The position numbers were made by a program, and so were the translations under genes. Source: Deltaproteobacteria bacterium (lineage in GTDB: Bacteria > Desulfobacterota > Binatia > UBA12015). From it: a stretch of DNA of 36,227 nt. Location of the stretch: the NCBI GenBank assembly GCA_016874795.1, contig VGTG01000047.1, forward strand, positions 1-36,227, written 5' to 3'. Position 1 is the stretch's first letter, and each line of letters opens with the position of its first letter. This document shows positions 31,316 to 35,400 of this stretch, in pieces. The notes below the pieces were generated by a model, which saw nothing but the letters and a program-made list of their open reading frames with translations, had not been told where the DNA came from and did no database searches.

Positions 31316-32226
31316 CGCCGGGCGCTCCCTCCGTCTCGATCCTCGTCGCGTCGCGCAACCGCGCCGGGAGCCTGCGCGCGCTCCTCGACTCGCTCGAGCT
31401 TCTCGAGCCGCCGCCGATCCCGTGGGAGATCGTCGTCGCAGACAGCGCGTCGACCGACGAGACACCCGCGATGCTCGCCGCGTGGCGGGCGGCCGATCCG
31501 CGCCGCGGGGAAGGGCGGCGCATGCTCCGCCTCGACGTGCCCGGCAAGTCGCGCGCGCTGAACGCCTCGTTCGAGATCGCGCGCGGCTCGCTGTTCGCGT
31601 TCCTGGACGACGACGTGACCCCGGATCGATCGTGGCTCCGCGAGGTGGTCGCCTACTTCGCGGACAACGACTGCGCCGCGGCGCAGGGCTCGGTCCACTG
31701 GCCGCCCGAAGCGGAGGCGGACCCGGAGATCCGCCGCCGGCTCGAGTGCTACCGGACGATCGTCCGTGTCGTGCTCCCGGCGCGCTCGCGGCCGCTCGAT
31801 CTCGTCGGCGCGAACATGGCGATCCGCCGCTCGACGATCGAGCGCGTCGGCGGCTTCGACGAGCGTCTCGGCGCGGGCGCGATCGGATGCGGCGAGGACA
31901 CGGAGCTCGGGCATCGCGTCCTCCGCCTCGGCGGGTGGATCGGCTACATGGAGTCGGCCGTCGTCGTCCACGACGTCGATCCGGGCCGGCTCACCGAGGA
32001 GTACTTCCGCGACTACCACCGCCGCCTCGGGCGCAGCGACCAGCTCTATCGGCAGCGATCCCCGCTCACGTGGACGTTGCCGAAGCTCGTCAAGAGCGAG
32101 GTCCGCTTCGCAGCCTACCGCCTGACGGGCGACGCGGCGCGCGCCTACGCGGCGCGAGCGCGCTGTCTGCAGTACGCGGAGATGCTGCGCACCGCCTGGC
32201 AACGGCGCCGAGCTACACGCGGCTGA
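31312..32226 (+). CDS. GT2-family glycosyltransferase
   Basis: A 304-residue GT-A-fold enzyme: SVSILVASRNRAGSLRALL, VVADSASTDET, FLDDDVTPD (metal-binding DxD), GANMAIRRS and GCGEDTELGHRV, the E-D acceptor-binding motif. No membrane helices, but an amphipathic basic C-terminus. It probably adds a sugar to a lipid-linked chain in the cytoplasm. GTG 31312 overlaps the ligase stop as GTGA; ATG 31255 would add 19 residues of low-complexity sequence. Its final 14 bases overlap tail to tail with trmL. Confidence 0.87.
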   Translation: MTPGAPSVSILVASRNRAGSLRALLDSLELLEPPPIPWEIVVADSASTDETPAMLAAWRAADPRRGEGRRMLRLDVPGKSRALNASFEIARGSLFAFLDDDVTPDRSWLREVVAYFADNDCAAAQGSVHWPPEAEADPEIRRRLECYRTIVRVVLPARSRPLDLVGANMAIRRSTIERVGGFDERLGAGAIGCGEDTELGHRVLRLGGWIGYMESAVVVHDVDPGRLTEEYFRDYHRRLGRSDQLYRQRSPLTWTLPKLVKSEVRFAAYRLTGDAARAYAARARCLQYAEMLRTAWQRRRATRG

Positions 32227-32662
32227 GCTGGCGCAGGGCTTCGTACACGACGATCGACACCGCGTTCGAGACGTTCAGGCTCCGCACGCCGCTCCCGGGC
32301 ATCGGGATGCAGTAGAGAGGCGCGAGCTCGGCGCGGAGATCCGCGGGAAGCCCCGCGGTCTCACCACCGAAGACGAGCGCGTCGTCCGGCTCGTAGGCGA
32401 CGCGCGTGTACGACGTCTCTCCGTGGGAGCTGAAGGCGAGGCGGCGCGGAGTCGGAACGGCGGCGAGGAAGTCCGACCAGCTCGCGTGCACGTGCAGGTC
32501 GACGAAGGGCCAGTAGTCGAGGCCGGCGCGCTTCAGGTAGCGGTCCTCGAGCGAGAACCCGAGGCGACCGACGAGATGGAGCGGTGTCGACGTCGCGGCG
32601 CAGAGGCGTGCGATCGAGCCGGTGTTCTGCGGGATCTCCGGCTCGACGAGAACCACCTGCAT
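32213..32662 (-). CDS. trmL: tRNA (cytidine/uridine-2'-O-)-methyltransferase TrmL
   Basis: A 149-residue SPOUT-class methyltransferase, close to the usual TrmL length (about 155). It has VLVEPEIPQNTGSIARLCAA at the N-terminus, VFGGETAGLP in the middle and IPMPGSGVRSLNVSNAVSIV at the end, which build the SAM-binding trefoil knot. TrmL methylates the wobble 34 ribose in leucine tRNAs. ATG 32662 gives MQVVLVEPE; the longer frame to 32743 runs into the DUF1285 gene and is not family-like. It is 7 bases after the DUF1285 stop, so the two form a housekeeping pair unrelated to the glycan genes. Confidence 0.93.
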   Translation of the reverse strand: MQVVLVEPEIPQNTGSIARLCAATSTPLHLVGRLGFSLEDRYLKRAGLDYWPFVDLHVHASWSDFLAAVPTPRRLAFSSHGETSYTRVAYEPDDALVFGGETAGLPADLRAELAPLYCIPMPGSGVRSLNVSNAVSIVVYEALRQLSRV

Positions 32663-32669
32663 GCGGCGA

Positions 32670-33131
32670 TCAACCAGGCCGGAGCGGCTGCTCGGCGCCG
32701 CCGGGGAGGGGCAGGACGAAGCCGTCGCCGCGCGCGCGGGCATGGCCGAGGAGCTCCGCCTGCGCGGGGCGGAGGAAGCGCGCCGCGTGGCGGCCGTCCT
32801 TCACGTCGCAGTAGAGGACGTCGGACTCGCCGAGGCGGAGCGTCGAGACGGCGAGCGGCTCGCGCGACTCGTCGTTCAGCTCGACCCGGAACCCCGTCTC
32901 GGGCGAGCCGTCGACCCGGCGCACGACGAACGGCGTGTCGTCGACGACGATGCGCGCGCGCTCGTCGCCGATCACGAGCCACCAGCCGCCGTCGTCGCCT
33001 CGCGTGACGTGCCGGGAGAACAGCATCGCGATGCGCTCGTTCTCGATCCGCTCGTCGTCCGAGTACCACTGCCCGTCGCGTCCGAAGCGGATCGTCTTCG
33101 ATTCGATCGCCCAGAAGCCGGCGCGTGCCAT
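32670..33131 (-). CDS. DUF1285-family protein
   Basis: A 153-residue cytoplasmic protein matching the DUF1285 family: WYSDDERIENERIAMLFSRH, then DDGGWWLVIGDERARIVVDDTPFVV, and a C-terminal barrel-like half with SDVLYCDVKDGRHAARFLRPAQ. Its function is unknown. ATG 33131 gives MARAGFWAIES; an upstream GTG-type extension to 33167 is less likely. It is divergent from the Lgt-TlpA gene over a 92-base gap and precedes trmL on the same strand. Confidence 0.82.
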   Translation of the reverse strand: MARAGFWAIESKTIRFGRDGQWYSDDERIENERIAMLFSRHVTRGDDGGWWLVIGDERARIVVDDTPFVVRRVDGSPETGFRVELNDESREPLAVSTLRLGESDVLYCDVKDGRHAARFLRPAQAELLGHARARGDGFVLPLPGGAEQPLRPG

Positions 33132-33223
33132 GAACGAAATCTTCTCACCCGCCTCCGCCCGTCGCAAGGTCGAGCGCTCCGCACTTTCGGCGACGCACCG
33201 CTTCCGATAGGCTCCGCCGGACG

Positions 33224-34498
33224 ATGCATCCCGTCCTGGTCCAGCTCGGGCCGATCGCGCTCTACAGCTTCGGTGCCATGCTCGCGCTCGGGTTCCTCGC
33301 GGCGGGCGTGCTCGTCGCGCGCGGCCTCGAGGCGCGCGGTCTCGATCGCGGGCACGCCTCCTCGATCGTGTGGTGGGCTGCGGTCGGCGGCATCGTCGGC
33401 TCGCGTGTGCTCTCGCTCGCGAACGACTGGAGCGCGTTCCTCGCGTCGCCGATGAGCTACCTCGTCACGGGGGCTGGATTCGTCTGGTACGGCGGGCTCG
33501 TCGGGGGCACGGTCGGCGTCACGCTGTACGTGCTCCTGCGCGGGCTGCCGTGGCTCGCGGTCGCGGACTCGATCGCCGTCGGCCTCGTGCTCGGACAGGC
33601 GATCGGGCGCGTCGGCTGCCAGCTCGCCGGCGACGGCGACTGGGGGACGGAGTCGAGCCTGCCCTGGGCGATGGCGTACACGAAGGCGATCTTCGGCTGG
33701 CCGTATCCGCCGGGGACCCTCGTGCATCCGGCGCCCGTCTACGAGAGCCTGCTCTACAGCGGGATCTTCCTCGTGCTGCTGCAGCTCTCGCGCGAGCCCG
33801 CGCGCCACCCCGACGGAACGTTGCTCAGCCTCTACTTGATCTTGACGGGCATCGCGCGATTCTTCGTCGAGGCGGTGCGGATCGAGCCGCGTCTCTGGCT
33901 CGGTTTGACCGAGGCCCAGTGGTTCGGGATCGCGAGCGTCGCGATCGGCCTCGGGCTCTTCGCGTGGGCGCGCCGCGGGGCCGGGCTCGCCGCGGCCGCC
34001 GTGATCGTCTGGGCCGTGACGCTGACGGGCTGCACCGACGCGAAGCAGGCGCCCGACTTCGTCGCGCAGACGCTGACCGGCCAGGCGGTGAACCTCTCCG
34101 CGCAGCGCGGCAAGGTCGTCTTCCTGAATCTCTGGACGACCTGGTGCCCGCCGTGTCGCGAGGAGATGCCGGCGATGCAGGCGCTCTCGAAGAAGTTCAG
34201 CGACGAGGACTTCGTGATCCTCGCCGTCAGCGAGGACGACGGCGTGCCGGCGGTGAAGAAGTTCGTCGACGAGATGCGGCTCGACTTCCCCGTCCTGATC
34301 GACTCGACCGGCGCGGTCGGACGCCGCTACGGCATCACCGGCTATCCGGAGACGTTCCTCATCGATCGCGAGGGCAAGCAGGTGGCGCGGTTCATCGGGC
34401 CGCGCGACTGGCGCGATCCCGCCTTCGAGCGCGATCTCCGCACGCTGATCGACGAGGGCCGCTGGGTGCGCGGCCCCGACGGCAACCCGTCCAGCTGA
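33224..34498 (+). CDS. lgt: Fusion of prolipoprotein diacylglyceryl transferase (Lgt) with a TlpA-like thioredoxin, joined by a lipobox
   Basis: A 424-residue protein. Residues 1-250 are Lgt: LGPIALYSFGAMLALGF, FVWYGGLVGG, signature GRVGCQLAGDGDWG (128-141), HPAPVYESL, RFFVEAVR. Lgt moves a diacylglyceryl group onto the Cys of prolipoproteins. Residues 274-424 are a TlpA/ResA-type thioredoxin with LNLWTTWCPPCREEMP (Cys308, Cys311) and GYPETFLID with the cis-Pro, a periplasmic thiol-disulfide enzyme. The joint is ARRGAGLAAAAVIVWAVTLTGC: basic end, hydrophobic stretch and lipobox L-T-G-Cys270, a full lipoprotein signal. No ATG or plausible internal start lies there, so the two are one frame. 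It starts at ATG 33224, divergent from DUF1285. An ftsE-like gene follows after 215 bases. Confidence 0.9.
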   Translation: MHPVLVQLGPIALYSFGAMLALGFLAAGVLVARGLEARGLDRGHASSIVWWAAVGGIVGSRVLSLANDWSAFLASPMSYLVTGAGFVWYGGLVGGTVGVTLYVLLRGLPWLAVADSIAVGLVLGQAIGRVGCQLAGDGDWGTESSLPWAMAYTKAIFGWPYPPGTLVHPAPVYESLLYSGIFLVLLQLSREPARHPDGTLLSLYLILTGIARFFVEAVRIEPRLWLGLTEAQWFGIASVAIGLGLFAWARRGAGLAAAAVIVWAVTLTGCTDAKQAPDFVAQTLTGQAVNLSAQRGKVVFLNLWTTWCPPCREEMPAMQALSKKFSDEDFVILAVSEDDGVPAVKKFVDEMRLDFPVLIDSTGAVGRRYGITGYPETFLIDREGKQVARFIGPRDWRDPAFERDLRTLIDEGRWVRGPDGNPSS

Positions 34499-34713: not shown

Positions 34714-35400
34714 ATGGTTCGATTCTTTCACGTGGCGCGTGCGTACGGCGGAGTGGAAGTCCTGTCGGACGTCACGCTCTCGCTCGATGGTGAGGCGGTC
34801 GTCGTCACGGGGCCGAGCGGTGCGGGGAAGACCGTGCTGATGCGTCTTCTCTGTGGCCTCGAGGCGCCGACGCGCGGGTGGATCACGGTCGACGGCGTGC
34901 CGCTCGCGGGCTCGACGTCCGAGGTCCTCGCGGCGCATCGGCGGCGGCTCGCCGTCGTCCCGCAGGAGCCGTGCCTCGTCTCGAAGAGCACCGTCATCCA
35001 GAACGTCGCTCTCGCTCTGCAGGTGCAGGGCGTCGGGCACGGCGAGGCGCACGAGCGCTCGGGCGCCGTCCTCGCGCGTCTCGAGATCGCCGCGCTCGCG
35101 GACCGGCGTGCCGACCTCCTGTCGGCGACGGAGCGGCGCTGCGTCGCGCTCGCGCGCGCTCTCGTTCGCGAGTCGGCTTCGCTCGTTCTCGCCGACGAGC
35201 CGGGCGCGGGGCTCGATCCCGCTTCGCAGCGCCGGGTCGGAGAGATGCTTGCGGAGCGTGTCGCCGCGGGCGCGACGGTCGTCGTCACGAGCCAGCAGCC
35301 GGGCTTCCCGGGCCTCGAAGCGCCGCGGATCGCATTCCTCGCGGAGGGGCGCATCACCTGGGATTCGGCCAGCGCGGCGTCGGCAGCACGGGCTTCATGA
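34714..35400 (+). CDS. ftsE: FtsE-like cell-division ABC ATPase with degenerate signature and H-loop
   Basis: A 228-residue ABC ATPase directly before ftsX, so FtsE by context. FtsE pairs with FtsX at the septum to control wall hydrolases. Walker A is GPSGAGKT (33-40), Q-loop VVPQEP (Gln84) and Walker B LVLADEPGAGLDP (Asp161, Glu162). The signature reads LSATERRCVALARAL rather than LSGGE-QQRVAIARA, and the switch region reads VVTSQQPG where FtsE normally has T-H-D, so the H-loop His is missing. ATP turnover may be weak. ATG 34714 gives MVRFFHVARAYGG, the usual FtsE N-terminus. The stop overlaps ftsX as ATGA. Confidence 0.83.
   Translation: MVRFFHVARAYGGVEVLSDVTLSLDGEAVVVTGPSGAGKTVLMRLLCGLEAPTRGWITVDGVPLAGSTSEVLAAHRRRLAVVPQEPCLVSKSTVIQNVALALQVQGVGHGEAHERSGAVLARLEIAALADRRADLLSATERRCVALARALVRESASLVLADEPGAGLDPASQRRVGEMLAERVAAGATVVVTSQQPGFPGLEAPRIAFLAEGRITWDSASAASAARAS

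Follow-up and report, generated by a model that had tools for sequence, protein, structure and literature searches.

Bacterial precursors that join a polytopic membrane protein to an exported protein are exemplified by the cytochrome b/c1 precursor FbcH of Bradyrhizobium, which is cut at an internal signal sequence by signal peptidase I. The gene described here would encode a precursor of a similar kind, in which an internal signal sequence connects a polytopic membrane protein to its exported partner. However, while the FbcH chain contains no enzyme of the lipoprotein pathway, the cutter expected for the present chain is LspA, and the chain itself holds the type of enzyme, prolipoprotein diacylglyceryl transferase (Lgt), that licenses this cut. 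We know of no other cellular polyprotein that holds an enzyme type whose product signals the cutting of its own chain, and among the papers that we searched none mentions prolipoprotein diacylglyceryl transferase, thioredoxin, TlpA and fusion together.

Enzymes of the Lgt family require a free thiol on their substrate. The Escherichia coli enzyme has seven helices, with its N-end outside and its C-end in the cytoplasm (PMC8048626), and lipobox peptides have been proposed to enter it through a side cleft, where the local shape of TM7 matters (PMC4728403). The first part of the fusion resembles this protein (PF01790; structure 5AZB) in its seven-helix fold and in keeping the equivalents of R143, R239, E243, R246, E202 and G154, but it displays YGGL and GRxGC...GDGDWG where E. 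coli Lgt has HGGL and GRxGN, and it adds a lipobox and a thioredoxin behind TM7. The second part shares its fold and a CPPC-type motif with TlpA/ResA thioredoxins (3kcm, ResA), from which it differs in that its lipobox is internal, behind another protein, and not N-terminal. Its fold matches include Etrx2, a lipoprotein of pneumococcus, and as in Etrx2 a lipid anchor would be expected in the TlpA of the fusion. The adjacent lgt-tlpA pairs of other Binatia, found at 86 of 123 loci, consist of the same two proteins in the same order and on the same strand, but these are two genes, and their TlpA mostly (74 of 86) has a plain hydrophobic N-end.

In the window, that is, the whole stretch of 36,227 nucleotides that was analysed, positions 33224-34498 of the forward strand form a single ORF of 424 aa, running from an ATG at 33224 to a stop ending at 34498 with no internal stop. 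The first-pass annotation had described this product as an Lgt fused to a TlpA-type thioredoxin via a basic patch, a hydrophobic stretch and Cys270, an architecture that is confirmed by the single ORF, by the Pfam domains and by a total of 19 fusions. The features of the gene are as follows.

33224..34498, + strand: lgt-tlpA fusion gene, 424 aa; a single ORF with an in-frame join common to 18 other genomes
33230..33967, + strand: Lgt domain, residues 3-248, with seven predicted membrane helices (PF01790, 5azb alignment, AlphaFold model, Foldseek)
33488..33490, + strand: Tyr89, at the position of His103 in E. coli Lgt, giving YGGL in place of HGGL (5azb alignment)
33605..33646, + strand: Lgt signature GRVGCQLAGDGDWG, including R129 (equivalent to R143) and C132 (equivalent to N146) (5azb and fusion alignments)
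33971..33976, + strand: basic patch Arg250-Arg251, n-region of the putative internal signal (positive net charge before the run in 19/19 fusions)
33977..34021, + strand: hydrophobic stretch, residues 252-266 (uncharged-run analysis; the model shows a separate helix at 255-267)
34022..34033, + strand: putative lipobox L267-T268-G269-C270 (Cys in 19/19 fusions; A or G at -1 in 19/19)
34043..34429, + strand: TlpA/ResA-type thioredoxin domain, residues 274-402 (PF08534/PF00578; 3kcm by sequence and by Foldseek)
34142..34156, + strand: WCPPC redox motif, residues 307-311 (W307, C308, P310 and C311 invariant in 17/17 aligned fusions)

Pfam places LGT (PF01790) at residues 3-248, with an E-value of 1.6e-43 and 149.2 bits against a curated cut-off of 24.9, and AhpC-TSA (PF00578) and Redoxin (PF08534) at residues 274-385 (E 1.7e-30) and 274-402 (E 9.5e-29), respectively. 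The protein does not reach the NCBIfam cut-offs for an Lgt equivalog (TIGR00544, 99.5 versus 118.9; NF000778, 137.5 versus 334), nor those of the ResA (115.1 versus 170) and TlpA (91.4 versus 230) models. When solved structures were searched by sequence, the Lgt part matched E. coli Lgt (5azb), and the thioredoxin part matched 3kcm best out of 48 (E 6.1e-34), with ResA next. An AlphaFold model of the 424-aa protein (mean pLDDT 82, pTM 0.62) displays seven helices at the Lgt positions, a separate helix at residues 255-267, a segment of low confidence at 269-271 and then a thioredoxin fold; Foldseek, used with this predicted model, retrieved 5azb (E 3.5e-10, TMt 0.68) and 3kcm (TMt 0.92). A thioredoxin fold with a CxxC motif is present in the window protein, and C308, P310 and C311 are invariant in the 17 aligned fusions.

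The Lgt-TlpA fusion is genuine, occurs repeatedly and is conserved at the sites that a lipobox requires. In the window protein, the junction reads WARRGAGLAAAAVIVWAVTLTGC270, in which R250/R251 precede a stretch of 18 uncharged residues that closes with LTG and is followed by the Cys, so that the presumed lipoprotein signal occupies residues 250-270 of the 424 and is not N-terminal. Whether homologues keep the junction Cys, a question raised by the first-pass annotation, can be answered clearly, since it is present in all 19 fusions, encoded by TGC in 13 and by TGT in 6. While the junction had been described as L-T-G-Cys, it is [G/A]-Cys that is conserved in 19/19, and L-T-G as such is not. 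Positive net charge precedes the uncharged run in every fusion, and a basic n-region, an uncharged h-region and [GAS]-Cys occur together in 19/19; the run is 15-22 residues long, with a median of 17, compared to a median of 22 in 74 separate TlpAs with plain N-ends. A PROSITE-like lipobox pattern fits 13 of the 19. The -3 site is loose, with L or V in 10/19 fusions, and it is likewise loose in separate lipobox TlpAs. The strict form [LV][ASTVI][GAS]C (PMC8048626) fits 3 of the 19 fusions, including the window protein (LTGC), and 3 of 12 separate lipobox TlpAs.

Of the columns lying between G242 and A276, C270 alone is invariant in the 17 aligned fusions. When the linkers of all 19 were aligned on the Cys over 53 columns (-45 to +7), parsimony gave no change at the Cys, two at -1 (where only A or G occur) and 5-11 in each of the remaining 51, counts that are partly inflated by the gap-free alignment, especially at a distance from the Cys. 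For comparison, the mean number of changes per domain column is 3.1 for Lgt and 2.9 for TlpA. The same pattern is seen in the window's own family (f1) alone, with no change at the Cys, one at -1 and 3-7 at the other linker columns.

We searched for the fusion in 58 genomes, in 148 genomes of the class (Candidatus Binatia) and in 395 genomes of the phylum. Classification used one lgt locus per genome and covered 123 of the 148 class genomes, of which 19 are fused, 86 have a separate same-strand tlpA downstream and 18 have no tlpA downstream; the other 25 are genomes with matches at contig ends (G003, from the window's genus, included) or with fragmentary or weak matches, and also a few others such as G104, G138 and G143. 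The fusions are distributed over four families (13 in f1, two in f4, one in f6 and three in f10), counting one whose N-end is missing at a contig edge (L020) and an f10 fusion that matches the profile only from position 36 (L048). As for the 18 loci lacking a downstream tlpA, 17 are in f2, three of them with less than 450 bases of contig left, and one is in f15 and may be a paralogue. Among the matches listed for the phylum sample, whose 395 genomes include 16 from the class of the window, every uninterrupted full-length one comes from that class. Six of 80 named loci, kept from 582 encoding a relative, are fused (L089-L093, L098), while the Y/C-type Lgts of Ignavibacteria, Bacteroidetes and others among these 80 have no thioredoxin-like frame downstream in a motif scan. 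One of the six, L090 (CAMBZJ010000006.1), comes from a record titled as a Klebsiella pneumoniae MAG but is a Binatia fusion with 69% identity, and the record is most likely a mislabelled bin. Excluded from the counts is L151, where a run of N separates an actinobacterial Y/C-type lgt from a frame that is LysA-like by eye and creates an apparent 711-aa fusion. The full-length matches L049-L058 in family f9, tried as fusions, have a stop between lgt and tlpA and are separate genes.

The 86 separate TlpAs are of two forms. In 12 of them (four in f4, five in f6, two in f14 and one in f16) the hydrophobic stretch ends in [GAS]-Cys; this number includes L025 and L216, scored as lipobox by eye though missed by the PROSITE-like pattern, and leaves out L205 and L209 (f5), where the pattern matches with the Cys in mid-helix. 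The remaining 74 have a plain hydrophobic N-end, none with [GAS]-Cys, although one of them (L252) may carry a cleaved signal instead of an anchor. The three fusion events outside f1, a family in which none of the 13 loci offers a separate tlpA for comparison, all lie inside lipobox groups of the tree, and none lies among the plain-form lineages. Since the lipobox groups make up about 20% of the eligible branch length, finding three of three events there would have p ~0.008 if fusions fell by branch length alone, a post hoc value for three events. In f9, 16 of 39 splits are a single stop codon away from an in-frame fusion with a TlpA whose N-end is plain hydrophobic, and none is fused. The simplest account would be that a lineage can tolerate a fusion if the lipoprotein pathway is able to reverse it.

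A tree built by a quick method from the Lgt and TlpA columns, with the linker left out (105 rows), has four changes of the fused state, and its starred branches force four. Constraining the 19 fusions to one clade cost 368 log-likelihood units (p-AU 2.9e-6), which rules out a single clade. We read the four changes as four gains, a reading that goes beyond the change counts, which alone cannot separate gain from loss; an ancient fusion re-split in several lineages, though compatible with the clade test, would need more changes than four. On the same tree the lipobox state, whether fused or separate, changes three times with only one change forced by starred branches, and its history is less firm than that of the fused state.

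We consider it probable that the chain is a polyprotein that receives a lipid at Cys270 and is cleaved at this site by LspA into free Lgt and a lipoprotein TlpA. Two proteins would in this case arise from the one gene product. Its seven-helix Lgt part would be inserted with the C-end in the cytoplasm, and since that end is cytoplasmic, the extra helix would place the thioredoxin on the outer side of the membrane, where a lipoprotein needs to be. Judging from family topology and from its anatomy, the segment made up of the basic patch, the short hydrophobic helix and [G/A]-Cys would serve as an internal signal of the lipoprotein type and bring the thioredoxin to the outside. The thiol of Cys270 would receive diacylglycerol from an Lgt, which might be the same chain in cis, another copy or, less likely, a paralogue, and LspA would cut before Cys270, the products being a TlpA anchored by its lipid and a free Lgt that keeps a short helix at its C-end. 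Genes for the pathway are at hand: LspA and LNT_N are each found in 13 of 14 family genomes and in all 8 of these with a completeness of 90% or more and a contamination of 5% or less, and the window genome has LspA and Lnt-like genes, along with one DsbD_TM match and six weaker TlpA-like matches. In a published assay, GST placed in front blocked lipobox modification during expression (PMC4728403); however, that chain was not built for export, whereas the Lgt-TlpA chain is. The polyprotein reading had already been put forward in the first-pass annotation, and its lipidation and cleavage are supported by the conservation pattern and by the occurrence of fusion beside lipobox-type TlpA, but the fixed 1:1 supply of the two proteins that it also invoked is no general need since 86/123 loci keep the genes separate.

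Which Lgt would act on Cys270 is a separate matter. It is possible, though we favor it much less than the general scheme, that the polyprotein is processed while its own Lgt is inactive or specialised, another Lgt-like protein lipidating Cys270 in trans, a view that overlaps with our preferred explanation. When aligned to 5azb, the fused Lgt departs from the E. coli enzyme by H103Y (Y89), N146C (C132), Y26F (F16) and Y235T (T208), C132 being the single cysteine of the Lgt domain and invariant in 17/17 aligned fusions. The activity of this divergent H103Y/N146C type is not assured, since these changes affect essential sites and neither H103Y (PMC4728403) nor N146A (PMC13251419) complements in E. 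coli. According to the latter paper, a Tyr replaces H103 in Firmicutes Lgts and N146C occurs in distant Lgts; a mycobacterial N146C paralogue is presumed to have low activity, and a Leptospira Lgt with N146C restored cell shape but viability only poorly (PMC13251419). Against lipidation in trans, the equivalents of R143 (R129), R239 (R212), E243, R246, E202 and G154 are all kept in the window protein and invariant in 17/17 aligned fusions. In the Lgt signature, G128, R129, G131, C132, G136, D137, G138, D139, W140 and G141 are invariant in the same 17.

Candidates for a helper enzyme do exist, as the window genome has two further PF01790 genes, but both score lower than the fusion and both lack N146. 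These genes (L002, L003) are divergent and Lgt-like, with signatures of GCFCAGCC/GCFAAGCC type, and L002 seemingly lacks most of the head region. Moreover, among 24 non-fusion PF01790 rows in the window's family, 16 were read and none (0/16) has an Asn at the N146 site, and in G007, which is 88% complete, there is no PF01790 match besides the fusion. Should these cells make lipoproteins, the enzyme responsible is probably a Cys-type Lgt, since no Asn occurs at that site in the 16 paralogues read. By its profile score, the best in the window genome, the fusion is the likeliest candidate for the lipoprotein Lgt there, but this need not hold family-wide since another PF01790 protein in G006 outscores the fusion (175.5 versus 148.3 bits), which is also a point in favor of lipidation in trans. 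Tandem lgt pairs of this type occur in other Binatia (G038:C15:170771-172318; G057:C3:345471-346960; G112:C3:16119-17629).

Improbable, in our view, is that the product remains a permanent two-domain membrane protein in which an eighth helix tethers the thioredoxin, with Cys270 put to another use, such as redox exchange, or lipidated but left uncut. The separate helix 255-267 that the model places after TM7 would suit such a tether and, to our knowledge, nobody has seen cleavage of an Lgt-TlpA chain. Yet a tether needs neither the Cys nor a small residue at -1, and these are the only two linker sites that stand out; moreover, the plain N-ends without [GAS]-Cys found in 74/86 separate TlpAs belong to lineages in which no fusion was seen.

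Far less likely still is an internal translation start within the fused gene, which would yield a separate TlpA whose lipobox is an ordinary N-terminal one. Seven of the 19 fusions (L006, L009, L012, L013, L014, L015 and L020) do have an in-frame ATG, GTG or TTG 13-45 codons before the Cys together with a weak Shine-Dalgarno-like match of at least 4 bases, as against 9 of 12 separate lipobox TlpAs with a start and such a match in the same range. However, L010 has no start in the range examined, and the window gene offers a single one within the 33 codons examined, a TTG that lies 42 codons ahead of the Cys and lacks a Shine-Dalgarno-like match, which makes an internal start unlikely for this gene. 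Finally, an assembly or sequencing artefact, which the annotation had named as a danger and which might be feared because the window makes up one entire contig in a draft of 360, is refuted by the same in-frame join in 19 separate genomes of four families, one of them on a 963-kb contig (G005).

Returning to the polyprotein reading, a bolder version of it is that Lgt modifies its own chain first, in cis via the side cleft by TM7, which would license LspA to free both proteins, and that TlpA keeps lipobox thiols and C132 reduced, lipid transfer being tied in this way to thiol redox. We offer this version tentatively. That TlpA serves as a dedicated reductant for Lgt and lipoprotein synthesis is a reasonable guess in view of the recurrent lgt-tlpA pairing, the thiol need of Lgt and the invariant C132; against it, the same Lgt type occurs with no thioredoxin-like frame downstream in other phyla and at 17/18 f2 loci. 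The reversed order, with tlpA directly upstream of a Y/C-type lgt, was observed at L123 (from 507; a Bdellovibrionales MAG) and at L157 (from 2001; a Proteobacteria MAG). If processed, the chain would be a cellular polyprotein whose cleavage is signalled by the product of an enzyme type that it contains itself. The fusion makes it testable whether lipoprotein synthesis profits from a dedicated thiol reductant, as the recurrent pairing suggests, and whether Lgt works in cis on a tethered substrate. Such a natural enzyme-substrate pair would be useful because the acceptor peptide is absent from the Lgt structures of 2016 (PMC4728403).

As for the neighbourhood, the fusion gene is followed on the same strand by an ABC ATPase gene (34714-35400; PF00005, FtsE-like by eye) and then by a frame for an FtsX-like membrane protein (by eye), and a similar-looking ABC frame is also found downstream of the f10 fusion L048. 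On the other side, a gene for a DUF1285-like protein (32670-33167, - strand; PF06938) is divergent from the fusion gene and adjoins a SpoU-type methylase gene (32213-32743, - strand).
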